Part shown: one piece after another, positions 35,509 through 55,842 of the stretch
Position numbering within the stretch: position 1 is the first letter of the stretch
Layout of the letters: each line of letters starts with the position of its first letter
Assembly (NCBI RefSeq): GCF_036322705.1
Contig: NZ_AP027270.1
Coordinates: 2,047,501 to 2,111,500, forward strand
DNA: 64,000 bases
DNA from: Maricaulis maris
GTDB lineage: Bacteria > Pseudomonadota > Alphaproteobacteria > Caulobacterales > Maricaulaceae
Reading direction: 5' to 3'
The notes under the pieces: generated by a model
What the model was told of the DNA's origin: nothing
The model's database searches: none
Seen by the model: only the letters and a program-made list of their open reading frames with translations
Program-made: the position numbers and the translations under genes

Positions 35509-36183
35509 ATGTCCATCCCGTCACCCGACACCCCTGACGATATTCCCGCTGGCATCGCCTATCGCGACTGGGCCGCTGTCTATGACAGCAATGAGAACCG
35601 CACCCGCGATCTCGACGCCTCCTGCCTGATCGCGGCCGATCTGCCGCTGGCCGGTGCGACGGTCGTCGAATTCGGCGCCGGCACCGGCAAGAACACCGCC
35701 CATCTCGCACGCCAGGCCACCCGCGTCACCGCGATGGACCTGTCACCGGACATGCTGGCGCGCGCCCACAAGCGCGGTCTGGGCGACCATGTCCGCTTCA
35801 TCGAACATGACATCACCGGCCCCTGGCCTGTCGAACCGGCTTCGGCCGATCTGGTGGTCGGCAATCTGGTGCTGGAACATGTCCGCGATCTGGCGCCGGT
35901 CCTGGTCGAGGCTGCAAAGGCCCTGCGTCCGGGCGGACGGCTTTACCTGTCCGAACTTCATCCGTTCCGGCAATTGCGCGGCAGCCAGGCCCGTTTCGAG
36001 CGGGCCGATGGCAGCGCCGCCCGGGTCGAGGCCTATTATCATGGCGTATCGGAGTATCTGGCTGCCGCGCAGGCAGCCGGCCTGGCCTTGCTAAGCCTGG
36101 ATGAACCGATTGAGCACGGTGCCACGATCGGTGCCGAAACACCGCCGCGCCTGCTGGTCCTGCAATTCGTGAAAACCGCCTAG
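35509..36183 (+). CDS. Class I SAM-dependent methyltransferase
   Basis: A 224-aa methyltransferase. The SAM-binding motif I is VVEFGAGTGKNTAHLA, motif II is VTAMDLSPDMLARA, and a motif IV-like VVGNLVLEHVRDLAPVL precedes ALRPGGRLYLSEL. The substrate is unknown; UbiE/small-molecule type is likely. It lies between flbY and flaEY, so it could act on a flagellin or sugar, but this is only position. Its stop shares CTAG with the convergent flaEY stop. Confidence 0.75.
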   Translation: MSIPSPDTPDDIPAGIAYRDWAAVYDSNENRTRDLDASCLIAADLPLAGATVVEFGAGTGKNTAHLARQATRVTAMDLSPDMLARAHKRGLGDHVRFIEHDITGPWPVEPASADLVVGNLVLEHVRDLAPVLVEAAKALRPGGRLYLSELHPFRQLRGSQARFERADGSAARVEAYYHGVSEYLAAAQAAGLALLSLDEPIEHGATIGAETPPRLLVLQFVKTA

Positions 36184-38930: not shown

Positions 38931-39106
38931 CGCGAAAATCCTTTTCACCTGACTGCTCACAATGCGCCCGAAACACGAAGAAAGTGTTGCCAGACAAGGT
39001 AAACCGGATCGAGACAAGTTGAGGGAGCCGGCCCGGGCCCGGCGGCCTGCCGGGTGGCTGACACGGGCGGCCAAAACCTGTTACCGTCGGGGCGACACAA
39101 ACAGGC

Positions 39107-39169: not shown

Positions 39170-40243
39170 ATGTCGAACCGGACAGCGACCCAACTGCCTT
39201 TCGAGGAAATGATGAACCAACGCTCCTTCCTCGACCCGCGCATGCCACTGGATGGCAAAACCATTCTCGTCACCGGCGGGACGGGCTCGTTCGGCCGCAA
39301 GCTGACCGAGACCATCTGTGCGGAATACAAGCCCAAGAAGCTGATCATCTTCTCGCGTGACGAACTCAAACAGTATGAAATGGCTCAGGATTTTTCGCCC
39401 AGCGATTATCCCTTCCTGCGCTATTTCATCGGCGATGTGCGCGATGAGTCGCGGCTCGACCAGGCCATGCGGGACGTCGATATCGTCATCCACGCCGCGG
39501 CGCTGAAGCATGTCCCGATCGCCGAATACAATCCGTTCGAGTGCATCAAGACCAATGTCATGGGCGCCGAGAATGTGGTGCGGGCCGCGATCAAGCGTGG
39601 CGTCAGCCATGTCTGCGCCCTGTCCACGGACAAGGCCGCCAACCCGATCAATCTCTATGGCGCCTCTAAACTGGCGGCGGATAAAATATTCACCGCGGCC
39701 CAGCACATGGGTGGTGAGGGCGGACCGGTCTTTTCAGTGGTGCGCTACGGCAATGTGGTCGGTTCGCGCGGCTCGGTCATTCCCTATTTCCGCCGCCTGA
39801 TCGATTCGGGCGCCAAGGAATTGCCGATCACGGATCCGCGCATGACCCGCTTCTGGATCACCCTCGAGCAGGGCGTCAATTTCGTCCTGTCGAGCCTGTC
39901 CATGGCCCGCGGCGGCGAGATCTTCGTGCCGAAGATTCCCTCCATGAGCACCGCCGACCTGGCCCGTACGATGGCGCCGCATCTGCCGCACAAGGTGATT
40001 GGCATCCGGCCCGGCGAGAAGCTGCACGAAATCATGATTCCGGAAGATGATGCCCGGAGCACGATCGAGCTCGTTGACCGCTTCGCCATCCTGCCCGCAC
40101 ATGGCGCCAAGGTGACGGCGCGCTACCTGGCTACCGGTGGCCATCTGGTCCCGGACGGGTTCAGCTATGCCTCGAACACCAATCCGGAACAGCTCACAGA
40201 CGCGGCCCTGCGCCAACTGATCGGCATGGCCGCCGCGGCCTAG
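39170..40243 (+). CDS. flmA: UDP-GlcNAc 4,6-dehydratase/5-epimerase (PseB-type), first step of pseudaminic-acid synthesis
   Basis: A 357-aa extended SDR enzyme that converts UDP-GlcNAc to the 4-keto-6-deoxy sugar that starts the nonulosonic-acid pathway for flagellin. The NAD(P) site is TGGTGSFGRK; LIIFSRDELKQYEMAQDF is typical of PseB; the catalytic part reads STDKAANPINLYGASKLAAD (YxxxK). Start 39170 (MSNRTATQL) is used; ATG at 39209 (MMNQRSF) is possible. It shares its stop codon bases with flmB, which performs the next step, in a convergent CTAG overlap. Confidence 0.9.
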   Translation: MSNRTATQLPFEEMMNQRSFLDPRMPLDGKTILVTGGTGSFGRKLTETICAEYKPKKLIIFSRDELKQYEMAQDFSPSDYPFLRYFIGDVRDESRLDQAMRDVDIVIHAAALKHVPIAEYNPFECIKTNVMGAENVVRAAIKRGVSHVCALSTDKAANPINLYGASKLAADKIFTAAQHMGGEGGPVFSVVRYGNVVGSRGSVIPYFRRLIDSGAKELPITDPRMTRFWITLEQGVNFVLSSLSMARGGEIFVPKIPSMSTADLARTMAPHLPHKVIGIRPGEKLHEIMIPEDDARSTIELVDRFAILPAHGAKVTARYLATGGHLVPDGFSYASNTNPEQLTDAALRQLIGMAAAA

Positions 40244-41406
40244 GTGCCAAGCGCCGCCGCAAGGGCGTCGGTCACGCGACCGGGATCCTCATCCGTCATG
40301 CCGAAAAAGAGCGGCAGGGACAGGGTGCGCGCGTAATAGCGCCGCGCACCCGGCAGGTCCTGCCGGCCATAGCGCGCCGTGTAGAAAGGCTGGTCGGGGA
40401 CCGGGATATAGTGGACCTGGCTGCCGATCCCCTGCCCGGCGAGCGCGGCCATGATCTCGCCCCGGCTCCGGCCGATCGCCTCGAAATCGATCCGCACCGG
40501 ATAGAGGTGGAGGCAGGGATCACAGTCCGGCGTGCGCTGCAACGGCGCGACAGGCAGGTTGGCCCGGGACAATGCGGCATCATAAGCCTGTGCCAGCTCC
40601 CGGCGGCGGGCCGTGAACGCGCCCAGCCGCCGAAGCTGGGACAGGGCGAGCGCAGCCTGGATGTCGCTGAGCCGGTAATTCCACCCCAAGGCCTGCATTT
40701 CGTGCCACCAGGGCTCGCTCTCGCTGCGCTCGTGCCGGGCTGTGTCGCGCTCGATGCCGTGGCTGCGCAGCAGCCGCATCCGGCGCGCCAGCGCGGCGTC
40801 GCGGGTCGTCACCATGCCGCCCTCGCCCGCCGCGATCGTCTTGACCGGGTGAAAAGAGAAGGTCGCCGCGCGCGCATGACGGCCATTGCCGACCGGCTCG
40901 CCCTTCCAGCGGGAACCGACGGCGTGGCAGGCGTCCTCCACGAGCACAGCGCCCGCCGCCGAGACCAGCTCAGCCATCTCGTCAATCGCCTCGCACTGGC
41001 CGGCCAGATGGACCTGGAGCGCGACACGGGCGTGGCCGTCGGCCCGGCCGATCGCCTCTGCCAGACTGGCCGGCGTCATCAGCCCGGTGTCGGGATCGAC
41101 ATCCGCGAACACAACCTCCGCGCCACAATACAAGGCCGCATTCGCGGTCGCCATGAAGGTAATCGCCGGCACGATGCAGACATCGCCGGGCCCCACCCCC
41201 TCGGCGGCAAGGGCCAGATGGAGCGCGGTCGTGCCATTGGAGCAGGCGACGGCATGGTCGGCTCCGACCGCCTCGGCGAAGGCCTCTTCGAGCGCCTCGA
41301 TTGTCGGACCGGTCGTCAACCAGTCGCCGCGCAGCACTTCGACCACGGCCGCGATATCGCTGTGATCGATTGACTGGCGCCCATAGGGCAGAAACCGATT
41401 GGCCAT
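40240..41406 (-). CDS. flmB: PLP-dependent sugar aminotransferase (PseC-type)
   Basis: A 388-aa DegT/DnrJ/EryC1 aminotransferase that aminates the FlmA product at C4. PLP lysine K189 lies in FSFHPVKTIAAGEGG; SNGTTALHLALAA and VEDACHAVGSRW are other cofactor-binding parts. It opens with MANRFLPYGRQSIDHSDIAA, a standard start for the family. It is on the strand opposite flmA and shares the CTAG stop junction, so the two are separately expressed. The upstream neighbour on the same strand is flagellin copy 1. Confidence 0.9.
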   Translation of the reverse strand: MANRFLPYGRQSIDHSDIAAVVEVLRGDWLTTGPTIEALEEAFAEAVGADHAVACSNGTTALHLALAAEGVGPGDVCIVPAITFMATANAALYCGAEVVFADVDPDTGLMTPASLAEAIGRADGHARVALQVHLAGQCEAIDEMAELVSAAGAVLVEDACHAVGSRWKGEPVGNGRHARAATFSFHPVKTIAAGEGGMVTTRDAALARRMRLLRSHGIERDTARHERSESEPWWHEMQALGWNYRLSDIQAALALSQLRRLGAFTARRRELAQAYDAALSRANLPVAPLQRTPDCDPCLHLYPVRIDFEAIGRSRGEIMAALAGQGIGSQVHYIPVPDQPFYTARYGRQDLPGARRYYARTLSLPLFFGMTDEDPGRVTDALAAALGT

Positions 41407-41539: not shown

Positions 41540-42373
41540 TTAGCCGCCGAAGAGGTTCAGGATGATCTGCGGCTGGCCATTGGCGATGGACAGCGCCTGG
41601 ACACCCAGCTGCTGCTTGACCTGGAGGGCCTGCAGGTTGGCGCTTTCAACGGCCAGGTCAGCATCGACGAGGTTGCCGACACCCTTGGTCAGGGAGTCCA
41701 CAAGGCGACCGACGAAGTTGGAGTGCGCTTCCAGCTTCTTGGTGTCCGAGCCGAGATTGGCGAGGGCCTGGTTCACATTGTCGAGCGAGGTCTTGATCGC
41801 GGCGACGGCTGCGGTGGCGAGGGTCACGGTGCCGAGGCTGGCGGTGTTGGCGATCGTGATGATCGTGCCGCCAATGCTCATGTCCTGGGATTTCAGGGTG
41901 ACCGAGCGAGCCGCGTCGGCATCCGCGAGGAACTCGATGCCGTTGGTGATCGTGCCGTTGAGGATATTCGCGCCGTCGAATTCGGCATTCTGAAGAATGA
42001 CATTGACCTGGTCGAGCAGCGCCTTGAAATCACCGTCATAAGCCTGCCGGGAGAAGGTATCGAGCGAGGGGTCCATCGCCGCAGTCGCTTTCTCGCGCAT
42101 CTGCACCAGAAGATCCGAGATCGACTCGCCGGCGGCCAGCGCCACGTCACCAATCGTCGTCGCCCGGTCGAGCCCGGTCTGGACGGCACCGAGGGCGCGG
42201 ATATCGGCCCGCATGCCCTGTGCAACCGCGTAGATCGCCGTATTGTCCTTGGCGCCCGCGACCTTCAGGCCGGTATTGATGCGGTTCTGAACACCCAACA
42301 TGTCGTCATTGGTCTTGTTCAGGTTTTGCAGAGCGATCATCGCTCCGGTGTTGGTGTGGACGCTCATAGTCAT
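41540..42373 (-). CDS. Flagellin (divergent copy 1)
   Basis: A 277-aa flagellin with the N-terminal coiled-coil sequence MIALQNLNKTNDDMLGVQNR and C-terminal QQLGVQALSIANGQPQIILN. The central variable part is short, as in Caulobacter 25-29 kDa flagellins. It differs clearly from the other two copies (for example NTAIYAVAQGMRADIRALGA against GGVYAIAQKMRSDVAGYGAV). I chose ATG 42373 (MTMSVHTN) for its GGGAG 9 nt upstream. A sigma-54 promoter lies at 42433. It is likely a class-IV filament gene subject to FlbT/FlaF control and FlmG glycosylation. Confidence 0.93.
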   Translation of the reverse strand: MTMSVHTNTGAMIALQNLNKTNDDMLGVQNRINTGLKVAGAKDNTAIYAVAQGMRADIRALGAVQTGLDRATTIGDVALAAGESISDLLVQMREKATAAMDPSLDTFSRQAYDGDFKALLDQVNVILQNAEFDGANILNGTITNGIEFLADADAARSVTLKSQDMSIGGTIITIANTASLGTVTLATAAVAAIKTSLDNVNQALANLGSDTKKLEAHSNFVGRLVDSLTKGVGNLVDADLAVESANLQALQVKQQLGVQALSIANGQPQIILNLFGG

Positions 42374-42432
42374 TGCGACATTCTCCCGCGATCTCAATCA
42401 CCGCCATTCAGCGGCTGTTCGGAACGGGTTGC

Positions 42433-42447
42433 GCAAGAGCCGTGCCG
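42433..42447 (-). promoter_or_regulatory. Sigma-54 promoter of flagellin copy 1
   Basis: Read on the minus strand: CGGCAC-GGCTC-TTGC, with the GG and GC cores 10 nt apart. It is about 60 nt upstream of the start. TTGCCGGG elements at about 42531 and 42564 lie 85-120 bp further upstream and are likely enhancers. Confidence 0.75.
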
Positions 42448-42597
42448 TTTTGGCACGCCACGTAAAACGTAGTTGATTCATATAGTTGAGTGAGAGTTAG
42501 CGTCGCTTGGGCGGATCGGTCAACCCGCGCTTGCCGGGACAAATATGCCCGGGGGGTCAATTTTTGCCGGGTCAGACGCCCGGTTCGGCCCGGATCA

Positions 42598-42963
42598 CTA
42601 GGCCCGCTGATCGATCAGCCCGGCACTGCGCGTGCGGAGGAATTCCATCAGATCGCCGTGCTTTTCCGGCGGCCAGCGGCGAACGGTTTCGCCGGTATCC
42701 TGGTCGACCAGGAGGTAGATGTACTCGCCCGACTTATCATCCTGGAGGATCTTCAGGCGCGAGTTGCCCAAGGCCTCGGCCGCCAGACGCTCGAGGTCTG
42801 CGGACGACTGTTCGGGCCGGTTGCCCGTCGCAGCCGAACGGTCGGCGTCCTGAACAGGCTCTACCCGCCGCACGCCTTCGCGTGGACGGTCAGTTGAAAT
42901 GTCTCTGCTCTCGGCGATGGGTGCCAGGGGAGCAGATCTCGGATTGAACACCGTTTCTGCCAT
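42598..42963 (-). CDS. flaG: FlaG family protein
   Basis: A 121-aa protein. Its C-terminal half (NSRLKILQDDKSGEYIYLLV, DQDTGETVRRWPPEKHGDLM) is the FlaG domain. FlaG proteins affect filament length or flagellin export. The N-terminal half is Arg/Asp-rich and variable. It lies between flagellin copies 1 and 2 on the same strand. Confidence 0.88.
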   Translation of the reverse strand: MAETVFNPRSAPLAPIAESRDISTDRPREGVRRVEPVQDADRSAATGNRPEQSSADLERLAAEALGNSRLKILQDDKSGEYIYLLVDQDTGETVRRWPPEKHGDLMEFLRTRSAGLIDQRA

Positions 42964-43061
42964 TTTTCTGTTCGCTGACGCGGATGCGTCGGCGCCTCAT
43001 ACATTCTTCGCGTCGACCGCGGAGGCGGATGGCGGAGCGAACTCCGCCATCCAGTCCGCGA

Positions 43062-43886
43062 TTAACGGAAGTAACCCAGGATCGTGCTGGGCGCCGAGTT
43101 GGCGATCGACAGAGCCTGAACGCCAAGCTGTTGCTTGACCTGCAGGGACTGAAGACGCGCGCTCTCTTTGGCCAGGTCTGCATCGACCAGGTTGCCGATA
43201 CCCTTTTCCAGGGCGTCAGACAGCTTGCCGACGAAACCCTTGTGGATCTCCAGCGACTTGGACGCGGTGCCGAGCTTGGCCAGCGAAGCGTTCAGGTTGT
43301 CGAGAGAGGTTTCGATCGTGGCGACGAGCGTGGACGCATCGCCAGCCGAGGCGAAGGACGCCGCTGCGGCGACCGTCACGACGCCACCAGCCAGAGAGAA
43401 GTTCTGGTCGGAAATGGTGATCGTGTTGGAACCGTCAGCATTGGCCAGGGCCGAGATCGAGGTGACCGAACCATTAATCAGGTTCGTGCCGTTGAACTCG
43501 GCATTGGAGACGATCGTGGTCACCTGGTCGCGGAGGGCCTTGAAGTCCTCGTTGAGCGCGGTGCGCGAGGCCGTGTCGAGCGAATTGTCGGACCCGGCGA
43601 GCGCCTTTTCCTTCATCTCGATCAGGATGTCGCCGATGGCCTCACCGGCTGCCAGAGCCACGTCCGTGGTCGACGCGGCCAGATCCAGCGATTGGCCGAC
43701 AGCGCCATACCCGGCAACGTCCGAACGCATTTTCTGGGCGATCGCGTAGACGCCGCCATTATCCTTGGCGGATGCAATAGCCAGACCGGTGTTGATGCGG
43801 TTCTGGACCTGCTCCATGTCACGGTTGGTCTGGTTGAGGTTCTGCAGCGCAACCATGGCGCCGGCATTGGTGTTGATTGTAGCCAT
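43062..43886 (-). CDS. Flagellin (copy 2)
   Basis: A 274-aa flagellin beginning MATINTNAGAMVALQNLNQT and ending QQLGVQALSIANSAPSTILG. It is about 80% identical by eye with copy 3, including the central TISDQNFSLAGGVVTVAAAA region, so the two are recent duplicates. The start at 43886 is clear; the open frame upstream is promoter sequence. A sigma-54 promoter lies at 43960. A perfect 11-bp stem with a CGAA loop (43027-43052) follows the gene but has no U-tract. Confidence 0.95.
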   Translation of the reverse strand: MATINTNAGAMVALQNLNQTNRDMEQVQNRINTGLAIASAKDNGGVYAIAQKMRSDVAGYGAVGQSLDLAASTTDVALAAGEAIGDILIEMKEKALAGSDNSLDTASRTALNEDFKALRDQVTTIVSNAEFNGTNLINGSVTSISALANADGSNTITISDQNFSLAGGVVTVAAAASFASAGDASTLVATIETSLDNLNASLAKLGTASKSLEIHKGFVGKLSDALEKGIGNLVDADLAKESARLQSLQVKQQLGVQALSIANSAPSTILGYFR

Positions 43887-43959
43887 TTCTTGGCCCTTTC
43901 CATTCTGGTGATGCGCGGACGTTCTGCCCGCCGGGTCTTCTGACCCACACAAAGGAAGA

Positions 43960-43974
43960 GCAAAGCTGGTGCCA
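43960..43974 (-). promoter_or_regulatory. Sigma-54 promoter of flagellin copy 2
   Basis: On the minus strand: TGGCAC-CAGCT-TTGC, an exact match to the sigma-54 consensus, 74 nt upstream of the start codon. Confidence 0.85.
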
Positions 43975-44016
43975 GTTGGTGATTGACCTCGAAGGTTAAT
44001 TCCGAGTCGCGTGATT

Positions 44017-44122
44017 CGGCGGGATGTTTTTGCCCGGTCGATTGTTCCGCGGTAACCATTCACTCGGCAGAATCTGCCGCTTCAGGGGGCGAAATCACCA
44101 GGCAATTTTTGCCGATCGGCAA
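44017..44122. promoter_or_regulatory. Palindrome cluster upstream of flagellin copy 2, likely FlbD enhancers
   Basis: CGGCGGGATGTTTTTGCCCG starts at 44017; CGGCA-GAATC-TGCCG at 44065-44079 has the same design as the flgI palindrome; TTGCCGATCGGCAA at 44109-44122 is a perfect 14-bp palindrome. They lie 45-150 bp upstream of the sigma-54 promoter at 43960. Confidence 0.6.
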
Positions 44123-44132
44123 GATTTTATGA

Positions 44133-44148
44133 TTAATTTCAGGTTAAT
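44133..44148. promoter_or_regulatory. CtrA-like box in the flagellin 2-3 gap
   Basis: TTAA-TTTCAGG-TTAAT matches the CtrA consensus except for the last base. It is about 250 bp upstream of flagellin copy 2, so a role in transcription of that gene would be from a distance; it may be chance in this AT-richer gap. Confidence 0.35.
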
Positions 44149-44191
44149 GGCTGAAAATGGACATGCCAAAGCGCCAGCGCCGGCGAATCTG

Positions 44192-44227
44192 AAAAAAATG
44201 ACCGGGATCGCCATGAGGCGATCCCGG
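44192..44227 (-). terminator. Rho-independent terminator of flagellin copy 3
   Basis: An 11-bp stem CCGGGATCGCC / GGCGATCCCGG with an ATGA loop, and seven A on its left (a U-tract on the minus strand). It starts 11 nt past the flagellin stop. Confidence 0.88.
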
Positions 44228-44237
44228 CCGGACGAAC

Positions 44238-45065
44238 TTAGCCGAAGAACGACAGAATGGTCTGCGGAGCCTGGTTGGCGATGGAGAGTGCCTGGACACC
44301 CAGCTGCTGCTTGACTTGCAGCGACTGGAGCCGTGCACTTTCCTTGGCCAGGTCGGCGTCGACCAGATTGCCAATTCCGACTTCCAGCGCGTCGGACAGC
44401 TTCGTCGTGAAGTTCTTGTGAATTTCCAAGGACTTCGAAGCAGTTCCGAGCTTTGCCAGAGCCGTACTCAGATTGTCGAGAGACGTTCCGATCGTCGTCA
44501 CAAGTGTCGACGCGTCTCCTGCCGATGCGAAGGAACTCGTCGCAGCCACCGTCACGACACCACCGCCCAGAGTAAAGTTCTGGTCGGAAATGGTGATCGT
44601 GTTGGAGCCGTCAGAGTTGGCCAGAGCCGAGACAGAGGTCACAGTCCCGTTGATCAGGTTTGTGCCGTTGAACTCAGCATTGGAGGTAATCGTGGCGATC
44701 TGATCCCGCAGGGCCTTGAAGTCTTCGTTCAGGGCCGTCCGCGAGGACGCATCAAGCGTTGCATCAGATGCCGCGAGCGCCTTCTCCTTCATCTCGATCA
44801 GGATATCCGAAATTGCCTCACCGGCAGCCAGAGCCACATCGGTGACAGACGTCGCGAGGTCCAGGCTTTGCCCGACCACACCATAACCATTGACCTGGGA
44901 GCGCATGCGTTGGGCGACGGCGTACACGCCGCCATTATCCTTCGCACTGGCAATTTCCAGGCCTGTGTTGATGCGATTCTGAACCTCGTTCATGTCCATG
45001 TTCGTCTTGTTCAGATTCTGCAGGGCAATCATCGCCCCAGCGTTGGTGTTGACAGAAAGTGCCAT
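44238..45065 (-). CDS. Flagellin (copy 3)
   Basis: A 275-aa flagellin beginning MALSVNTNAGAMIALQNLNK. It is very close to copy 2 in the conserved ends and much of the centre (TISDQNFTLGGGVVTVAATS). ATG 45065 is chosen by alignment with copy 2; five more in-frame residues lie upstream. Its own sigma-54 promoter (45140) and terminator (44192) make it a single-gene unit. Serine/threonine residues in the centre are possible glycosylation sites. Confidence 0.95.
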   Translation of the reverse strand: MALSVNTNAGAMIALQNLNKTNMDMNEVQNRINTGLEIASAKDNGGVYAVAQRMRSQVNGYGVVGQSLDLATSVTDVALAAGEAISDILIEMKEKALAASDATLDASSRTALNEDFKALRDQIATITSNAEFNGTNLINGTVTSVSALANSDGSNTITISDQNFTLGGGVVTVAATSSFASAGDASTLVTTIGTSLDNLSTALAKLGTASKSLEIHKNFTTKLSDALEVGIGNLVDADLAKESARLQSLQVKQQLGVQALSIANQAPQTILSFFG

Positions 45066-45139
45066 TGTTGTGCTCTCCATTCTGGATGCGTGTCAGGTCG
45101 AATTTTTCGGCCCTGAGCGTTTTGCTCGGGACTGACTTC

Positions 45140-46032: not shown

Positions 46033-46199
46033 GAGGTCCCTCCGGTCCACAAATGATGCGAGCGATGTCGGTCGCGGCGCACAGGTTGGCAATATGGGGT
46101 GAAGAAAACGTTTCCAGCCCGCCGCTGCGGCATCATCGAATATTAGCGAGTTCTTAAAGCGAATCTCATGCCTTGGCTTCCAGAATCGAGGCAGGACTT

Positions 46200-48002
46200 A
46201 TGACCATGCAGGATGCGACCGCTCTCGACCTTGATGCGGAGATCTCCGCCGAGGCCGAAACCGAGAAGAACGAAACCCGCGACGCGGTGCCGATCGGCGC
46301 CCAGGCCATTCGTGTGGATGCGCATGTTGATCGCATCCCGGCCGACCGGCGTCGGGTCTTCCAGAAAGTCGCAGCGCTGGCAAAGCGCGCCATGAAAACG
46401 TCTGCCGAGGGTGACAATGTTGCCGCGGCCCGCCTTGCCCACAAGGCGTACCTGCTGGCCCCGGACATGGCCCTGACCAACCATGTGCTCGGCCTGATGC
46501 TCTATAATCTCGGCCGCTTGTCGCGGGCCCTCGATTTCTTCGAGACAGCCTGGAAGATCGATCCCAACGACGCCGAGATCTACCAGAAGCTCGGACTGGT
46601 CGCCTGGAAGCTGAACATGCTGGAGGCGGCCGAGAAATTCTACCGCCTGCAATACAAGCTCGCCCCGACAGCGGTTGATGCCGCGATCAACCTGGGCGGC
46701 GTGCTGCGCGATGGCGGCAAGTTCGAGGAAGCCATCGAGATCCTGCGGACCGCCATTTATGCCCACCAGGAGAATTACGAGCTCTGGAACTCGATGGGCA
46801 CCGTCATCAATGACAGCGGGGATCCGGTCCAGGCGCGCACCTTCTACGAGGAAGCCTTGCGCCTGAAGCCCGACTATGGCCGGGCCCACAACAACATGGC
46901 CAATATCCACGAGCTTCTGGGCGAGCCCGAACTCGCCATTCCGCACTTTGATGCCGCCCTCAAGGATCCCGCTGATCCAATGGAAGAGGCCACCATGCGG
47001 CATGGCCGGTCGATGGTTCTTCTTGCCGCCGGCCGTATCGAGGAAGGCTGGGCGGCCAATGAGAGCCGCCTCGACCCGAACCGGGCCCAGGCGACCTTGT
47101 TCACGATGAAGATTCCCTTCTGGGACGGGACTGATCCGGAGCAGCTGCGCGGCAAGACCCTGCTGCTTGTCGGCGAACAGGGCCTCGGCGACGAAGTCAT
47201 CTTCATGAATGTGGTCAACGACCTGCTCGAGGCTGTCGGTCCCGAAGGCGAGCTGCGCATCGCCTGCGAATACCGCCTGATGCCGCTGGTCAAACGCTCC
47301 TTCCCCGCGGCCGTGGTCGGCCATCACATGTCCGCAAACATCGAGGGCCGTGACGTCCGGGTTGTGAAGGAGCTGGAGGATGGCGCTGATTTCTGGACGC
47401 CGATGGCGACGCCATTGCGCGGCCTCCGCAAGAGCCTCGAGTCCTTCCCGGACGAGGCCGGTTTCCTGGTCGCCGATCCCGAGCTGCAGGCGGGCTTCCG
47501 CGCCCAGATCGCCGGCTTCGGCAGCGGCCTGAAAGTCGGCATCCTGTGGAAGTCCCTCAACATGAATGCCCGGCGCTCACGCTTCTTCTCCGCCTTTGAT
47601 GCCTGGGAGGGCGTCCTCAATACGCCGGGTGTCGACTTCATCAACCTGCAATACGGCAAGGTCGACGACGAGCTGGCGCTGGCCCGGGAACGCTTCGGTG
47701 TCACCGTGCACCAGCCGACCGACATCGATCTCAAGATGGATCTCGACAAGGTCGCGGCCTACGCCTCGGCCTGTGACCTCGTGCTCGGACCGATGAACGC
47801 AACCTCCAACCTCGCCGCTGCCTGTGGCGGCAAGGTCTGGTTCATCCATGCGCGGTCCTCGACCTGGACCCTGCTCGGCACCGATCGGCAGCACTGGTAC
47901 CCGCAGACCCGGTCCTTCTTCGGCACCGGCTTCCAGGACTGGGACAACACCATGGCCCGTGTCGCCAGCGAGCTGGCAGCCCTGGCCGGCAGGCCGGGCT
48001 GA
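46200..48002 (+). CDS. flmG: Flagellin glycosyltransferase FlmG (TPR plus glycosyltransferase domain)
   Basis: In Caulobacter, FlmG binds flagellin through TPRs and adds pseudaminic acid. The 600-aa protein has about six TPRs from residue 55 to 270 (ALDFFETAWKIDPNDAEIYQ, EAAEKFYRLQYKLAPTAVDA and others). A GT-B-like C-terminal domain follows, with LLLVGEQGLGDEVIFMNVVN, KVGILWKSLNMNARRS and CDLVLGPMNATSNLAAACGG. I chose ATG 46200 for GAGG 8 nt upstream; TTG 46173 and ATG 46206 are alternatives. It is the first gene of a probable operon with flmD, the sulfotransferase, ATP-grasp, SpsF and NeuB genes. Confidence 0.9.
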   Translation: MTMQDATALDLDAEISAEAETEKNETRDAVPIGAQAIRVDAHVDRIPADRRRVFQKVAALAKRAMKTSAEGDNVAAARLAHKAYLLAPDMALTNHVLGLMLYNLGRLSRALDFFETAWKIDPNDAEIYQKLGLVAWKLNMLEAAEKFYRLQYKLAPTAVDAAINLGGVLRDGGKFEEAIEILRTAIYAHQENYELWNSMGTVINDSGDPVQARTFYEEALRLKPDYGRAHNNMANIHELLGEPELAIPHFDAALKDPADPMEEATMRHGRSMVLLAAGRIEEGWAANESRLDPNRAQATLFTMKIPFWDGTDPEQLRGKTLLLVGEQGLGDEVIFMNVVNDLLEAVGPEGELRIACEYRLMPLVKRSFPAAVVGHHMSANIEGRDVRVVKELEDGADFWTPMATPLRGLRKSLESFPDEAGFLVADPELQAGFRAQIAGFGSGLKVGILWKSLNMNARRSRFFSAFDAWEGVLNTPGVDFINLQYGKVDDELALARERFGVTVHQPTDIDLKMDLDKVAAYASACDLVLGPMNATSNLAAACGGKVWFIHARSSTWTLLGTDRQHWYPQTRSFFGTGFQDWDNTMARVASELAALAGRPG

Positions 48003-48006
48003 GCGC

Positions 48007-48951
48007 ATGTCGGCGCGGCTCGCCATCCGCTGCGACGGCTCCACCACGATCGGTCTGGGCCATGTCATGCGCTGCGGAGCCCTGGCCAATGCGCTGGTTG
48101 ATGAAGGCGCCTCGGTCGCCTGGCTGACCACCATACCACAGTACCGCCCGGCGGATCTCGATGGTCGCATCGAAATCGTGACGCTGGCCAGCGATGACGC
48201 GCTGGCCGGCGCCCTCGCCTCGCGCGGCATCCGGCATCTGGTCGCCGACTGGAAGCAGACCGACCCGGACAGGGTCGCCGCGCTGCGCGCCGCCGGCCAC
48301 GCGGTCACGCTGGTCGGCAATTTCCTGCACGGCGCCGTGCCCGACCTGCATGTGCGCCAGGGCTTCCTGCCCGCCCTGTCCCCGTCCGGCGCACCGGCGC
48401 TGAGCGGCCCGCGCTATCTCCTCCTGTCAAAACCCTATCAGGACCTGCCGGAGCGCATGGTCAGTGACCGGCCGACCCGCGTCCTGCTCTCGCTTGGCGG
48501 GACGGTAACGCCGCTGCTGGACCGGATCGCCGAGCGCCTCGCCCTGTCCTTCCCGGATCTCGACCTTGACCGGCGCGGACCTGCCGGTAGCGGGGCCGTG
48601 CCGCCGCTGGTCGCGGCTTTGACGAAGGCCGATATCGGTATTCTCGCCGGGGGGACGACGCTGCACGAGGCTGCGGCGACCGGCTTGCCGACCATCTGCA
48701 TCCCGATCGCGCCCAATCAGTTCGAGCGCGCCGAGCAATTCGAGAGCGTCGGCCTGGGCCTCAGTCTCAACCCGTCCGATCCCGGTTTCGAGCGCCAGTT
48801 CGAGACCAGCCTTGCGGCCCTGGCCGGCGATGCCGGACGGCGTCGGGGCATGGCCCGGACGGCGCAGGCCCTGGTCGATGGCGGCGGCGCCGGCCGGGTC
48901 GCCCGACACCTTCTCGGCCTGGCAGCGACGACGGCGGCGGAATCGCAGTAA
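48007..48951 (+). CDS. flmD: UDP-sugar hydrolase of the PseG/SpsG type
   Basis: A 314-aa GT-B fold enzyme that removes UDP from the 2,4-diamino sugar before condensation with PEP. The N-terminal DGSTTIGLGHVMRCGALANA motif (GxGHxxR) is typical of PseG/SpsG. The C-terminal half has ADIGILAGGTTLHEAAATGL and CIPIAPNQFERAEQFESVGL. ATG is 4 nt after the flmG stop, so translation is coupled. It fits as FlmD in the Caulobacter scheme. Confidence 0.87.
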   Translation: MSARLAIRCDGSTTIGLGHVMRCGALANALVDEGASVAWLTTIPQYRPADLDGRIEIVTLASDDALAGALASRGIRHLVADWKQTDPDRVAALRAAGHAVTLVGNFLHGAVPDLHVRQGFLPALSPSGAPALSGPRYLLLSKPYQDLPERMVSDRPTRVLLSLGGTVTPLLDRIAERLALSFPDLDLDRRGPAGSGAVPPLVAALTKADIGILAGGTTLHEAAATGLPTICIPIAPNQFERAEQFESVGLGLSLNPSDPGFERQFETSLAALAGDAGRRRGMARTAQALVDGGGAGRVARHLLGLAATTAAESQ

Positions 48952-49036: not shown

Positions 49037-50035
49037 ATGACCCGCACGACGAAGACTGCGAGCAGCGGCGCAACAGGCCGGACAGGCGTCGAGACCGCCG
49101 GCGCGGGCCAGGTCTGGCCGAACTTCCTCGTCATCGGCGCGCCCAAATCCGGCACCACCTCGCTCTATCACTACCTGAGCCAGCATCCCGATGTCTTCCT
49201 GTCGAAGGTGCGCAAGGAAGGCCGCTTCTTTTCCGGTGTCGGTGACGGCTCGGTCTATTGGCCTGACTTCTATCATTTCGACACGGCGCCCGATGTCAGC
49301 GATTACCAGGCCCTGTTTGCCGACCATGACGGCCAGGCGCGGATCGGTGATGTCTCGCCGGACTATTACGCCTACGCATCGATCGCGGCGCGCCGGGTGG
49401 TGACCTATTGCGGCAACGAGACCCGGATCATCGCCATCCTGCGCAATCCGGTCGACCGGACCTATTCGCACTATCTCCAGAATGTCCGCCGTGACGCCGA
49501 GTTCTACTCCTTCGAACAGGCCCTCGCCGATGAACCGCGACGGATCGCGGCCAATTGGGGCTTCCAGTGGCTCTATGCCGATACCGGTCGCTATGCCGAC
49601 CGGCTGCGCCAATATCGTGACCGCTTCGACTCCATGCTGATCCTGCTGCAGGACGAACTCGATCAGGACGGACCGGGCACGGTGCGCCGCATCTTCGAGT
49701 TTCTCGGCATCGATGCCGAGGTCCCGGTGACCGTCGAGCAGCGCTACAATACCGGCGGCATTCCGCGCTCCAAGATGAGCATTCTGGACGGCGCCCATGA
49801 TCACCGCGTCGGGGAAAGCTTCGAGACGCTCCATGCCGAGCTGGTGGCTCCGGTCAGTGGCGTCTCAGGCGCGACCAGCGCCGACGGGGTCTATCCACCG
49901 ATTGATGACAGCAAGGTCTCCATCCCGCCGATGGCGGAGGCGACCCGCGCCAGCCTGCAGGCAAGGTTCGAGCCGGAGATTGTCGCGCTCGAGGACCTGC
50001 TCGGTCGATCGCTCGACCTGTGGCGGCCGGCATGA
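49037..50035 (+). CDS. PAPS-dependent sulfotransferase in the flagellin-sugar operon
   Basis: A 332-aa cytoplasmic sulfotransferase. The 5'-phosphosulfate-binding loop is IGAPKSGTTSLYHYL (G35 to T41) and the 3'-phosphate motif is LRNPVDRTYSHYLQ (R136 to S144). The family moves sulfate from PAPS to hydroxyls of sugars, lipids or proteins. It is 85 nt after flmD, and its last codons overlap the ATP-grasp gene (ATGA). Sulfation of the sugar or of flagellin is inferred from position. The first 25 residues are Thr/Gly-rich and may not be conserved. Confidence 0.82.
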   Translation: MTRTTKTASSGATGRTGVETAGAGQVWPNFLVIGAPKSGTTSLYHYLSQHPDVFLSKVRKEGRFFSGVGDGSVYWPDFYHFDTAPDVSDYQALFADHDGQARIGDVSPDYYAYASIAARRVVTYCGNETRIIAILRNPVDRTYSHYLQNVRRDAEFYSFEQALADEPRRIAANWGFQWLYADTGRYADRLRQYRDRFDSMLILLQDELDQDGPGTVRRIFEFLGIDAEVPVTVEQRYNTGGIPRSKMSILDGAHDHRVGESFETLHAELVAPVSGVSGATSADGVYPPIDDSKVSIPPMAEATRASLQARFEPEIVALEDLLGRSLDLWRPA

Positions 50036-51081
50036 GTCTCGCGGCGCTCAGCAAAGGCGTCCTGGTCACCGGCGTCGGCGCACCGCCGGGTCTGGGCACA
50101 CTGCGCTCGCTGCGCGGCGCCGACCCGGCACTCACCCTGGTGGCCGCCGACATCAATCCGCTCGCCGGCGGCATGTTCGAGCCGGGCACGCAAAGCGTGG
50201 TCCTGCCCTCGGCCCGCGATCCGGAGGCCTATCGCAGCGCCGTGAAAGCGGTCTGCGAGACCCGGGGTCTCGACATCATCATTCCGGGATCGGAAGCGGA
50301 AATCGCCGCACTTGCCCCGGTCGCCCGGTCCTGGACAGAAGCCGGACTGCGCGTCCCCGTCGCCGACCCGGAGGTGATCGCCTTCGGGATCGACAAGGGC
50401 CTGCTTCTCGACCGGGTCAAGGCGCTCGGCCTGCCGCATCCGCAGACCTTGCAACCGGGCTGCGAGGGCGACCTCGCCCAATGGAGCGGCGGCTTTCCCT
50501 GTGTCGTCAAACCCCGCACCTCGCGCGGCGCGCGCGGCGTCAGCTACCCCGCCAATGCCCGCGAACTTGCCGCCATCTGGCGCGACACCGCGGCCGAGCA
50601 TGGCCCGTGCGTCGTCCAGCAACGGATCCCGGGCGGCGCGGACACTGTCTACACGATCGGCTCGATGTGGAATCACGGCCAGCTGGTCGTCTCCACCCTG
50701 CATCGCAAGCTGCAGACCAATCCGCCCAGCGGCGGCGTCGCGGTAGCCGGTGAGACAGTTGTGGATCCCGCGCTGATGGCCGCCGGGATCGCCGTACTGG
50801 AAGCCTCCGGTCCCTGGCACGGCCTCGCTGCGGTCGAGCTGAAACGTCCGGCACCCGACGCGCCCGCCTATCTGCTGGAGATCAATCCGCGCATGTGGGG
50901 CTTTGGGTATCTGATGACGCTGGCCGGCCTCAATATTCCCGCCTTGCTGGTGCGCATGCTGGCCGGTCCCGAGCATCTGGCTGGCCATCTCCCGTCAACC
51001 TTTCCGCCCTACGCTCCCACCCGTATGGTCCGAACCTGGCAGGACATCGAGATTCCGCCGACCGAGGAGGGGCAAGCGTGA
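50032..51081 (+). CDS. ATP-grasp ligase-like protein
   Basis: A 349-aa protein related to the ATP-grasp part of carbamoyl-phosphate synthase. The N-terminal Rossmann-like domain has VLVTGVGAPPGLGTLRSL. The ATP-grasp domain has FPCVVKPRTSRGARGVSYPA (lysine that contacts ATP) and the metal-binding AVELKRPAPDAPAYLLEINP (ExN). ATP-grasp enzymes form amide or thioester bonds from carboxylates, so this may attach an amino acid or acyl group to the sugar amine, but the substrate is unknown. The ATG overlaps the sulfotransferase stop, and its stop overlaps the next gene's GTG, indicating tight coupling. Confidence 0.78.
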   Translation: MSLAALSKGVLVTGVGAPPGLGTLRSLRGADPALTLVAADINPLAGGMFEPGTQSVVLPSARDPEAYRSAVKAVCETRGLDIIIPGSEAEIAALAPVARSWTEAGLRVPVADPEVIAFGIDKGLLLDRVKALGLPHPQTLQPGCEGDLAQWSGGFPCVVKPRTSRGARGVSYPANARELAAIWRDTAAEHGPCVVQQRIPGGADTVYTIGSMWNHGQLVVSTLHRKLQTNPPSGGVAVAGETVVDPALMAAGIAVLEASGPWHGLAAVELKRPAPDAPAYLLEINPRMWGFGYLMTLAGLNIPALLVRMLAGPEHLAGHLPSTFPPYAPTRMVRTWQDIEIPPTEEGQA

Positions 51082-51806
51082 CCCGAACCGTTGCCGTCAT
51101 CCAGGCCCGCACCGGCTCCAACCGGCTGCCGGGAAAGGTCCTGGAACCGCTGCATGACGATGTCTCGTTGCTGGCCTATCAGTGCCGCCATCTGCGCCGG
51201 ATCGACGGCGTCGACGAACTGGTCATCGCCACCACCACCAATCCGGACGATGACGCGGTTGTCGCACTGGCCGACCGCGAGGGCATCCGCGCCTTTCGCG
51301 GATCGGAGGAGGATGTGCTGTCGCGCTTCCTGCTGGTCGCCGACCGGACCGACGCCAGGACGCTGGTCCGCATTACCTCCGACAGCCCGTTTCGCGACCC
51401 GCAGGTGATCGCCCGCTGTGTCGCCGGACATGTCGCCGAAACGGCAGACTATACCCGCCCCAGCGCCGACCACCTGCCCAAGGGCCTGCGCGCCGAGGTC
51501 GTCGAGACCGCCATCCTGCGCCAGCTCGACGCGGCGCCGGAGACAACCCTGCGCGACCGGGAACATGTGACCGTCTTCATCCGCGACCATCTCGACCGCT
51601 TCCGCTGCCATACCGTCGATTTCCCGGAAGCCTTGCGGCGTCCCGATTTCGACGTATCGGTCGACACGATCGAGGATCTCGCCCTCGTCCGGGCTCTTTA
51701 CAATGCCCTCACCGAGCGCGGCTGGCCGGTCGATACTGCGCATTTGTGCCGGCTGTACGACGAGACCCACGTCCTGAAATCCATCATCACCAACCTGGCC
51801 CTCTGA
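51078..51806 (+). CDS. SpsF-type nucleotidyltransferase, probable CMP-nonulosonate synthetase
   Basis: A 242-aa enzyme. TVAVIQARTGSNRLPGKVLE is the nucleotide-binding signature of SpsF/CMP-KDO synthetase relatives; FRGSEEDVLSRFLLVADRT and TLVRITSDSPFRDPQVIARC follow. In B. subtilis spsE-spsF-spsG encode an analogous set. The probable role is CMP activation of the nonulosonic acid made by NeuB, equivalent to FlmC/PseF although the subfamily differs. The GTG at 51078 is chosen because it overlaps the ATP-grasp stop (GTGA) and follows GAGGAGGGG; earlier frame residues are not family-like. Confidence 0.8.
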   Translation: MTRTVAVIQARTGSNRLPGKVLEPLHDDVSLLAYQCRHLRRIDGVDELVIATTTNPDDDAVVALADREGIRAFRGSEEDVLSRFLLVADRTDARTLVRITSDSPFRDPQVIARCVAGHVAETADYTRPSADHLPKGLRAEVVETAILRQLDAAPETTLRDREHVTVFIRDHLDRFRCHTVDFPEALRRPDFDVSVDTIEDLALVRALYNALTERGWPVDTAHLCRLYDETHVLKSIITNLAL

Positions 51807-51809
51807 CCC

Positions 51810-52727
51810 ATGACCCACATTGATGTGATCGCCGAAATCGGCTCCAACCATGGCGGCGACCTCGACGAGGCCAAGCGCTATATCGCGGCCTGCGCAAAGG
51901 CCGGCGCCGATGTCGTCAAATTCCAGACCCTGACCCGCGAAGGCCTGATCGCGCGCTTCGTGAAAGACGGCGACGGCAAGGTGGTCGAGAACCCGAAATT
52001 TGCCGGCTTCGGCAATGCCGGCCTGCCCGATGACTGGCACGCGCCGCTGAAAGCCTGCGCCGAGGACAATGGCGTCGAATTCATGTCGACGCCCTTCTCG
52101 CTGGACGCCGTCGCCCTGATGGAGAGCCTCGGCATCAAGCGCTACAAGATCGCCTCGGGCGACCTCACCTTCACCCCGCTGCTGGAGGCACTGGGCGCGA
52201 CCGGCAAACCGCTCATCCTGTCGACCGGCGCCAGCTATCTGGACGAGGTCGCCACGGCCGTCGGGACGCTGTCCCGCGCCGGGTGCACCGATCTCACCGT
52301 GCTGCACTGCGCCGCCAGCTATCCGCCGGCCTGGGACGATCTCAACCTGTCGGCAATCACCACGCTGAGGGCAACGCTGGGCCTGCCGGTCGGCCTGTCG
52401 GACCATTCCCCGGGCGCCATGGCACCGATCGCCGCCGCCGCACTGGGCGCGGTCTTGATCGAGAAGCACGTGACCTTCGACCGGACTACGCCCGGCCCGG
52501 ATCATCCGTTCGCGATGGAGATGGACGAGCTGGCGGCGATGATCGCCGACCTGCGTCATCTCGAGCTGGCGCTCGGCGACGGGATCAAGAAGCCGGCCGC
52601 GAGCGAGATCCACCGCCGCCGCAATCTGCGTCGGGGCCGCTATGACGCGACGACGGGGAAGCCGGACGATCAGGGCCGCGACTGGCTCCGCCCGCAGCAC
52701 GCGCCGGACGAGCGCGCCGAATTCTGA
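51810..52727 (+). CDS. neuB: NeuB/PseI-type nonulosonic acid synthase with shortened C-terminus
   Basis: Condenses the diamino sugar with PEP to give a nine-carbon sugar. The TIM barrel is intact: VIAEIGSNHGGDLDEAK, KAGADVVKFQT, EFMSTPFSLDAVA, RYKIASGDLTFTPLL, VLHCAASYPPAW, GLSDHSPGAMAP and IEKHVTFDRTTPGPDHPFAM. The protein is only 305 aa; relatives are about 330-350 aa with a C-terminal SAF (antifreeze-like) domain. Here only the start of that region (RRRNLRRGRYD) and an unrelated tail remain. It starts 3 nt after SpsF and ends the operon before the terminator at 52780. Confidence 0.9.
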   Translation: MTHIDVIAEIGSNHGGDLDEAKRYIAACAKAGADVVKFQTLTREGLIARFVKDGDGKVVENPKFAGFGNAGLPDDWHAPLKACAEDNGVEFMSTPFSLDAVALMESLGIKRYKIASGDLTFTPLLEALGATGKPLILSTGASYLDEVATAVGTLSRAGCTDLTVLHCAASYPPAWDDLNLSAITTLRATLGLPVGLSDHSPGAMAPIAAAALGAVLIEKHVTFDRTTPGPDHPFAMEMDELAAMIADLRHLELALGDGIKKPAASEIHRRRNLRRGRYDATTGKPDDQGRDWLRPQHAPDERAEF

Positions 52728-52823: not shown

Positions 52824-53537
52824 CTATTTGGTCCGGATGGCGTCGATCTTGGAGGCCGAGACGCCGTCGACGATCGTGCGGTTGATCATCGGGTGGTTCT
52901 CGTCCTGCGGACCGAAATCACTGTCCGGGTGATAGGCAATGACCCGCATCTCGCTGTCGAAGGTGCGGAATTTGTGATTGCCCTCATAGGGGATGCGGAA
53001 CATCACGCCCGGCTCGAGCGGGATGATGCCTTCCGGCGTCTCGCACTCGCCACGGCCCGAGAACACCACACCGATCCGGTCGGACGGGTGGGTGTGCGGG
53101 GTCTGGTCAATGCCCGGCGGGAAATAGAGCAGGTTGAGGCAGGGATCGCCCATCTTGACCGGCGCGATCAGCAGGCTGTCGGTGCAGCCGTCGATATATT
53201 TCAGCCGGCCCTTGGGCTCGACCGGGCCACCGATCATGAAGAAGGCCTGGTGGAACTCACGCGCCATCACGATGCCGCGTCCACCGGATACGGTGAGCGC
53301 GTTGTTGGCCGAGAAATACATGCCGGCCTGGAGCCTGAACTGGCCGGACGCGGTGACCAGCGTCGCCTCGCCCTCCTGGACAAAGCCGAAATAGGCCGTG
53401 TCGACATTGCCCAGTTCGAGCACGTCACCGTCCCAGGCATGCAGCGTCGTCGGGAAGTTCGGATCGCAATCCGCCACTTTCCCGGTCAGCCATTCGAAGG
53501 CGTAAAAATTCTGGGTCCGAATCATCCCGTCAGCCAT
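52824..53537 (-). CDS. Cupin-fold protein of unknown function
   Basis: A 237-aa protein with two cupin halves; the second has the motif HTHPSDRIGVVFSGRGECET and PGVMFRIPYEGNHKFRTF, with histidines that could bind a metal. The first half (GFVQEGEATLVTASGQFRLQ) is less typical. It might be a dioxygenase, isomerase or binding protein. I chose ATG 53537 because AGGATCC precedes it; the longer frame is antisense to the MoxR gene. It converges with neuB at the shared terminator, so it is not in that operon. Confidence 0.6.
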   Translation of the reverse strand: MADGMIRTQNFYAFEWLTGKVADCDPNFPTTLHAWDGDVLELGNVDTAYFGFVQEGEATLVTASGQFRLQAGMYFSANNALTVSGGRGIVMAREFHQAFFMIGGPVEPKGRLKYIDGCTDSLLIAPVKMGDPCLNLLYFPPGIDQTPHTHPSDRIGVVFSGRGECETPEGIIPLEPGVMFRIPYEGNHKFRTFDSEMRVIAYHPDSDFGPQDENHPMINRTIVDGVSASKIDAIRTK

Positions 53538-55176: not shown

Positions 55177-55842
55177 ATGCCTGCTTCTTCCGATACGTCC
55201 GCCTGTCACCACCCCGCCCTCGACCCGATGAACCCCGCCCCGATGCCGGCGGCGCCGTCGATGGCCTATCTCAAACCGCTCATCGCCGGTCATCCCAAGA
55301 TCAGCGCGGGCGATTACAGCTATATCCATTCCTTCGATGATCCGGCGCGCTTTGCCGAGACCCAGCTGAAATACGCCTTCGACTTCATCGAGGACCGTCT
55401 GGAGATCGGCAAATTCTGTTCGATCGCGGCGGACGCCAGTTTCGTGCTCAATGGCGGCAATCATTTTGCCGACCGCCTGTCGAGCTATCCCTTCGCGATC
55501 TTCGGCTGCTGGGGCGAGCCCGATCCCGGTGCCTGGCCGAACAAGGGCGGGATCACCATCGGTCATGATGTCTGGATCGGCTGGGACGCGGTGATCATGC
55601 CCGGAGTCAGCATCGGCCATGGCGCCATCATCGCCGCCAAGTCGGTGGTTACCCGCGACGTCGCGCCCTATGAGATCGTCGGCGGCAACCCGGCACAGCC
55701 GATCCGCAAGCGCTTGCCGGATGATGACATCGAACGCCTGCTGGCACTGGCCTGGTGGGACTGGCCGGCCGAGACGATCCGCGCTGCCTCGGATGCGCTG
55801 ATGAAGGCGGACATCGCGGCGCTCGAGCAGCTGGCGCCATAA
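55177..55842 (+). CDS. Hexapeptide-repeat acetyltransferase (Vat/CatB-like)
   Basis: A 221-aa left-handed beta-helix enzyme. The sequence IGKFCSIAADASFVLNGGNH (the histidine is the usual catalytic one) and VWIGWDAVIMPGVSIGHGAI with AKSVVTRDVAPYEIVGGNPA match xenobiotic/streptogramin-type acetyltransferases. The true substrate could be a sugar or an antibiotic; acquired resistance is not implied. Its start could be 55177 or 55228, 55243 or 55261; residues 1-28 are not family-like. It is in an accessory-looking segment behind palindromic repeats. Confidence 0.75.
   Translation: MPASSDTSACHHPALDPMNPAPMPAAPSMAYLKPLIAGHPKISAGDYSYIHSFDDPARFAETQLKYAFDFIEDRLEIGKFCSIAADASFVLNGGNHFADRLSSYPFAIFGCWGEPDPGAWPNKGGITIGHDVWIGWDAVIMPGVSIGHGAIIAAKSVVTRDVAPYEIVGGNPAQPIRKRLPDDDIERLLALAWWDWPAETIRAASDALMKADIAALEQLAP

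Follow-up and report, generated by a model that had tools for sequence, protein, structure and literature searches.

The described systems to be compared with the locus analyzed here are the Flm/FlmG system of Caulobacter crescentus, the flagellin operon sfmABCDE of Shewanella oneidensis, and the sulfated protein-linked glycans of Halobacterium, each considered from portions of the published articles. In these portions, Caulobacter NeuB is described as receiving substrate-binding residues, including an Arg, from the antifreeze-like domain of its partner subunit (PMC7591256), and part of a further article states that Arg314 may help position the N-acetyl group of ManNAc (PMC6795526). Furthermore, Caulobacter FlmC is described as having no PseF homology, and a triple mutant lacking flmH and two of its paralogs did not phenocopy the losses of other pathway genes, with redundancy reported at the acetylation step (PMC7591256, in part). 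The Shewanella operon encodes a 290-aa NeuB alongside an ATP-grasp protein; the flagellin carries a mono-acetyl nonulosonic acid and a further moiety of 236–264 Da, and deletion of the ATP-grasp gene results in a flagellin shift slightly smaller than in the other deletions (PMC3765264, in part). Sulfated protein-linked glycans occur in Halobacterium, the archaellins of which carry the tetrasaccharide (PMC11980604, in part). By title, the PMC literature yielded no sulfated bacterial flagellin and no sulfotransferase acting on one, which is a weak negative because subscription papers lie mostly outside PMC, and it yielded no study of Maricaulis flagellin glycans; the nearest sulfated or nonulosonic theme was sialylation and sulfation in sludge polymers (PMC10483923, in part). 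The present report is focused on a flagellin-linked gene set of Maricaulis maris, a variant of the Flm/Pse kind, in which a sulfotransferase (ST) and an ATP-grasp ligase are encoded between pseG and the cytidylyltransferase gene.

The window, i.e., the whole 64,000-nucleotide stretch of DNA analyzed, contains this gene set beside the flagellin genes. An FlmG-like TPR glycosyltransferase (46206–48002, + strand; Pfam; start set by eye in an ORF that opens at 46173), named from the sequence-only reading and gene context rather than by direct comparison with Caulobacter FlmG, adjoins flaF, flbT, and flagellin genes, all of which were named by eye. It is followed by a divergent PseG/FlmD-like UDP-sugar hydrolase (48007–48951, +), which scores 82.7 bits, below the cut-off of 153.55; a PseG from the same genus, at locus L155, also falls short of this cut-off with 137 bits. 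After a gap of 85 bp, rather than an overlap, the ST gene (49037–50035, +) opens with ATG, closes with TGA, and is listed intact among the ORFs of the window. Its stop overlaps the start of the ATP-grasp gene as ATGA at 50032–50035, in agreement with the sequence-only reading, which had also placed the ST between flmD and the SpsF/NeuB genes; the ST does lie between them, but its direct neighbor is the ATP-grasp ligase of the carboxylate-amine ligase type (50032–51081, +), for which the Pfam and NCBIfam matches are all below cut-off and the assignment comes from PDB and fold comparisons. A GTGA overlap leads from the ligase gene to an SpsF-type cytidylyltransferase for the CMP-sugar step (51078–51806, +; Pfam), which scores 19.1 bits against the PseF cut-off of 205.7, and the next gene encodes a 305-aa NeuB-family synthase without the SAF/antifreeze domain (51810–52727, +; Pfam and domain scan), with 235.9 bits against the PseI cut-off of 340.25. 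Convergent with neuB is a cupin gene (52824–53525, − strand; Pfam; start codon at 53525 or 53537). The PseB/FlmA dehydratase (39170–40243, +; TIGR03589, 497 bits) and the PseC/FlmB aminotransferase (40240–41406, −; TIGR03588, 472 bits) are both above their cut-offs, and three flagellin genes (41540–45080, −; ORFs recognized by eye) encode the likely sugar acceptors. Among the enzymes of the classical pseudaminic acid pathway, PseB and PseC were found, and PseH, PseG, PseI/NeuB with SAF, and PseF were not found in their classical form. Four features had been absent from the sequence-only reading: the ATP-grasp ligase, the cupin linked to the cassette, the missing PseH, and the NeuB without SAF. 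Scans for promoters and terminators gave chance-level results only. Beside pseB, the window also contains a 964-aa ORF (36180–39074, −) with no Pfam match in a flagellar context; a protein with a similar start (L157, 9824–12559) adjoins cytidylyltransferase and pseB genes.

The ST protein of 332 aa is a PAPS-type sulfotransferase with an NDST/3-OST type fold, as judged from Pfam, PDB sequence matches, alignment, and fold. It matches Sulfotransfer_3 (PF13469; E = 4.6e-13, 50.4 bits, curated cut-off 27) and Sulfotransfer_1 (PF00685; E = 2.3e-11, 44 bits, curated cut-off 22), and no NCBIfam model fits it. The nearest PDB entry by sequence is 3rnl, a bacterial sulfotransferase (E = 1.3e-34), followed by 3-OST-3 and NDST-1. 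Both cofactor motifs named in the sequence-only reading are borne out by an alignment of the protein with its 13 close relatives, in which K37, G39–L43, E61, R136, and S144 are invariant in all 14 sequences, residue 38 is S or A, and P36 is nearly invariant. The segment PKSGTTSL (residues 36–43; 49142–49165, +) and the residues R136 to S144 (49442–49468, +) are, as we take them to be, the 5′-PSB and 3′-PB motifs, respectively, and Glu61 (49217–49219, +) aligns with a Glu of 3-OST-3 in the PDB sequence match, presumably the catalytic base. An AlphaFold2 model built from the 14 aligned sequences (pLDDT 75, pTM 0.77) most resembles 3rnl (E = 1.1e-16, TMt 0.87), with NDST-1 and the 3-OSTs also among the best folds; NDST and 3-OST are equally close and not separable by this comparison, and TPST2 appears at rank 45. 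Pairwise dN/dS against six of the 13 relatives is 0.095–0.248, and the gene is under purifying selection; a chance ORF or pseudogene is ruled out by these values together with the invariant cofactor residues. Transfer of sulfate from PAPS is predicted by family membership, and the protein looks cytosolic, as no obvious signal or membrane segment was seen by eye. The source genome, a single contig of 3.14 Mb, contains seven other Sulfotransfer_1 matches; five other sulfotransferase domains (loci L001, L003, and L005–L007) lie in open frames of 536–701 aa, which are likely multi-domain proteins. An APS kinase is present as well, and because 11 of 14 control genomes also have one, its presence is only permissive.

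The sequence-only reading had made its proposal depend on conservation of the ST beside neuB in relatives, and such conservation was observed. In a search for the ST, confined to a sample of 398 order genomes and run at a threshold of 1e-10, matches were obtained in 86: the source genome, 13 close relatives (54–89% identity; 12 from the genus and one from a sister genus), and 72 genomes with at most 39% identity. Twenty stretches were fetched from 19 genomes with ST matches, and the order flmG-pseG-ST-ATP-grasp-SpsF-neuB is kept in all 13 close relatives among them. Carriers of the cassette include Maricaulis maris DSM 4734, M. salignorans, M. parjimensis, and M. alexandrii. In one of them (G054), a second sugar set is inserted between flmG and pseG; this flmG locus (L042, 4336–12628) thus has two nonulosonic-acid sets in tandem, the ST cassette and a classical set that includes PseH. 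Two more incomplete genus genomes (65% and 69%), found via the ATP-grasp gene, retain the cassette as far as their contigs reach, one contig stopping inside SpsF before NeuB and the other 772 bp past neuB. The ST and the ligase accordingly lie between pseG and SpsF in 16 of 16 cassette genomes, the source genome included, and the two genes overlap in all 13 close relatives (ATGA in 11, GTGA in one, and TGATG in one). In the seven stretches whose ST matches are distant (33–37%), which come from six order genomes, no match to the ATP-grasp protein or neuB was obtained. Identities of PseG, ST, ATP-grasp, SpsF, and NeuB follow that of FlmG, with correlations of 0.85–0.94, and, as the cassette is essentially confined to one clade within the family, co-occurrence counts are not counts of independent events.

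The ATP-grasp ligase and the cupin accompany the ST closely. ATP-grasp matches at 1e-10 occur in 33 of the 137 family genomes, 16 at 53% identity or more and 17 at 32% or less; the 16 with an ortholog (53–86% identity to the protein of the window, which is itself counted) are exactly the cassette genomes, and the ST adjoins in each. A class-wide search at 1e-30, in a 385-genome sample with at most five candidates scored per genome, returned the source genome only. The modeled ligase (pLDDT 84) is similar in fold to carbamoyl phosphate synthase, PurT, and L-amino acid ligases, and a PDB sequence search also gives an L-amino acid ligase (E = 3.8e-5). With a trimmed cupin protein as query, used because the first part of the full 343-aa ORF overlaps a neighboring AAA gene, the cupin was found in 15 of 137 family genomes, namely 14 of the 16 cassette genomes and G133; it is lacking only from the two incomplete cassette genomes, and in G143 it is on a different contig from the ST, at the contig end. 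Short "cupin" matches in L169, L171, and L155 fall in the AAA-overlapping part of the 343-aa ORF and were rejected. Farther away, the single-cell alphaproteobacterial genome AG-359-I23 has a cupin (30%), an ST (47%), and an ATP-grasp protein (34%) in a row (L186, 6319–8952), flanked, as seen by eye, by a glycosyltransferase-like gene and transporter genes. The fetched 14.7 kb, with flanks of 7 kb, contain no match to the nonulosonic-acid genes of the window and no flagellar gene by eye, so that the trio could act on something else there; homologs of PseB (51%), NeuB (34%), and SpsF (35%) are located together at another site of the same genome. In G133 (L282, 3450–10749), the neighborhood of the cupin ortholog (74%) includes an AMP-binding ligase, a glycosyltransferase with a weak match, a different Sulfotransfer_3 protein, WbqC, and an aminotransferase, possibly a parallel system. 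A cupin, an acid-activating ligase, and a sulfotransferase therefore recur together in three settings, one of which has other types of ligase and sulfotransferase. ATP-grasp proteins are not general neighbors of Sulfotransfer_1 proteins: in a survey that kept 79 loci out of 198 relatives, none of the 64 distant loci at 28–39% identity (L187–L250) has a match at 1e-4 in the fetched flanks. Two distant STs (30–37%; L210, 2399–7138, and L218, 7001–11305), in a Symploca and a Sulfurimonas MAG, have a neuB (35%) within approximately 4 kb and no ATP-grasp match.

The third step of the pathway, performed by PseH in the classical version, was searched for with the curated model TIGR03585 and with a profile of four PseH/FlmH proteins (A3). 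The best score in the source genome is 28.3 bits against a cut-off of 93.1, and the profile gives no match at 0.001. Among the 137 family genomes, TIGR03585 matches at 1e-5 in 110 and exceeds its cut-off in only 12; NeuB matches in 80, which include all these 12, and 68 of the 80 neuB-bearing genomes are therefore without a PseH above cut-off. Hence, absence of PseH is weak evidence when taken alone, and other enzymes must often perform the acetylation step. In 25 chosen genomes, the profile detects PseH/FlmH at 133 bits or more in nine, four of the nine being sources of the profile. A strong match is absent from 14 of the 16 cassette genomes, with 32.7 bits as the best score among these, and present in G054 and G143, where it adjoins a second neuB in both. 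The second neuB sets of G103 and the sets of other genera (L158–L166 and L169–L171) were compared only with the window proteins and the PseH queries, and an flmG-linked neuB without a strong PseH also occurs outside the genus (L169).

Four genus genomes (89–94% complete) lack the cassette, and another group of genes is found at the flmG locus or close to it. A PseH–NeuB pair lies at or near flmG in G342 and G390 (PseH loci L152 and L153), and G318 has a formyltransferase, WbqC, PseG, and NeuB there. At the flagellin locus of G384 (L155, 4985–10589), KASIII, a cytidylyltransferase, PseG, an LpxD-like acyltransferase (172.8 bits against a cut-off of 207), and NeuB are encoded, and an acylated nonulosonic acid is suggested by the KASIII and LpxD-like set. 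In G088, which carries the ST cassette, a formyltransferase set is likewise located with the second neuB; formyltransferase candidates are at L154 and L157. The roles of the PseH, LpxD-like, and formyltransferase candidates at step three in these sister genomes would follow from their position and family; the outcome of the flmH triple deletion in Caulobacter counts against this (PMC7591256, in part). A hexapeptide acetyltransferase of the Vat/CatB type (55177–55842, +; below cut-offs), an unlikely candidate for the missing step-three enzyme, is encoded near the cassette in the window and in some but not all relatives; the stretches L045, L046, L049, and L051, as fetched, do not show it, and it is present in the ST-free L152.

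The NeuB of the cassette has undergone a domain loss. At each of the 14 other cassette loci where neuB is complete, the protein runs for 300–308 aa to the stop with a common tail; SAF is absent from all five cassette NeuBs scanned, including that of the window, and present in all three NeuBs of the genus that lie outside the cassette and were scanned. A different N-substituent would be compatible with such a synthase.

We therefore favor, with a probability of roughly 0.57, a variant of the pseudaminic type of pathway: the N-substituent would be set by the ATP-grasp enzyme, and the sugar or this substituent would be sulfated by the ST before transfer by FlmG. PseB and PseC would form a UDP-4-amino sugar, to the amine of which the ligase would couple a carboxylic or amino acid, perhaps with the help of the cupin, in place of acetylation by PseH. 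The ST would then use PAPS in the cytosol to sulfate the sugar or, more probably, the substituent added by the ligase, and the specialized PseG, the SAF-less NeuB, and the SpsF-type cytidylyltransferase would complete the activated sugar, which FlmG would put on flagellin. Given the ATP-grasp ligase, the linked cupin, the missing PseH, and the SAF-less NeuB, sulfate on an unusual N-substituent is no less likely than sulfate on the sugar ring. A sulfated product as such is predicted from the family membership of the ST only, and a sulfated nonulosonic acid on flagellin, which the sequence-only reading had proposed and tentatively regarded as a marine adaptation, would be the most economical reading.

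A tentative alternative, appreciably less probable than this pathway, is that the ST places sulfate on a hydroxyl, in the ring or a side chain, of a normally acylated nonulosonic acid, the ATP-grasp protein being a separate decoration enzyme and an unrecognized acetyltransferase standing in for PseH. The carbohydrate sulfotransferases among the closest folds, the redundant acetylation step of Caulobacter (PMC7591256, in part), and the 68 neuB-bearing family genomes without an over-cut-off PseH agree with it, whereas the SAF-less NeuB and the other step-three candidates in sister genomes point to an unusual N-substituent. The genes may also merely share a location, with the ST, ligase, and cupin making an unrelated sulfated metabolite or envelope glycan, as the L186 trio with no nonulosonic-acid gene in its fetched flanks and the G133 cupin ortholog, which belongs to a separate sugar locus and accompanies a sulfotransferase of another kind, would allow; this is unlikely, given that the ST and ligase are inside the operon between pseG and SpsF in every cassette genome and that the genome of L186 also has the PseB, NeuB, and SpsF homologs together.

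Direct N-sulfonation of the free 4-amine of the PseC product, with the ST acting as NDST does and itself replacing PseH, is slightly less probable still. It would account for the free amine left by PseC in a genome with no strong PseH, and NDST-1 is among the closest folds, but the translationally coupled ligase would then have no clear role and 3-OST, an O-sulfation enzyme, is an equally close fold. Sulfation of the flagellin polypeptide rather than of its sugar is the most improbable of these alternatives: the protein looks cytosolic by eye and is encoded in the flmG operon, yet the best PDB matches besides the uncharacterized 3rnl are carbohydrate sulfotransferases, with TPST2 far down the ranking, the coupled gene encodes a ligase, and the L186 pair has no flagellar gene by eye within 14.7 kb.

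The favored pathway can be extended into a broader proposal, which we hold as doubtful though conceivable: N-acetylation of the nonulosonic precursor would be replaced by a sulfated substituent installed by the ATP-grasp ligase, the synthase would have lost its N-acetyl-contacting domain, and the N-substituent step would be exchangeable, a single genus having acetyl, formyl, acyl, and sulfo-substituent forms of it. If this is true, a route to sulfated nonulosonic acids would be added in bacteria, the ATP-grasp proteins of flagellin loci would gain a testable job, and exchange of the N-substituent step among close relatives would suggest a route to variation of the filament surface.

Compared with known systems, the ST shares its fold, its PAPS motifs, and the aligned Glu with the heparan sulfate enzymes NDST-1 and 3-OST and with PDB 3rnl, whereas identity to the human NDST-1 and 3-OST is only 16–21% in fold alignments. 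Agl30 and Agl31 of Halobacterium salinarum are likewise sulfotransferases for a protein-linked glycan, and their deletions were tested for archaellum-driven motility; the likeness drawn here is one of role, and that system, in the available part of its description, is archaeal and N-linked and involves hexuronic acids rather than a nonulosonic acid (PMC11980604). The Shewanella sfmABCDE operon, also a flagellin operon, similarly combines a short NeuB with an ATP-grasp protein, and the nonulosonic acid there carries a large extra substituent; the two ATP-grasp proteins are likened by family and operon context. By contrast, its five genes, as described in part of the article, include no sulfotransferase and have other partners, with a putative MAF gene located separately (PMC3765264). 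The sequence-only reading knew of no such sulfotransferase gene in the Caulobacter set, and this agrees with the Flm enzyme table and with the main text of the article in its available form, where "sulf" occurs zero times (PMC7591256). The ST, ATP-grasp ligase, and cupin are thus extra in Maricaulis, the source genome has no strong PseH/FlmH, and the cassette NeuB lacks the antifreeze domain that the Caulobacter NeuB is described as having (PMC7591256, in part). What the two systems have in common, according to the same portions, is an FlmG-type TPR glycosyltransferase together with PseB, PseC, PseG, NeuB, and a cytidylyltransferase that is not homologous to PseF (PMC7591256).
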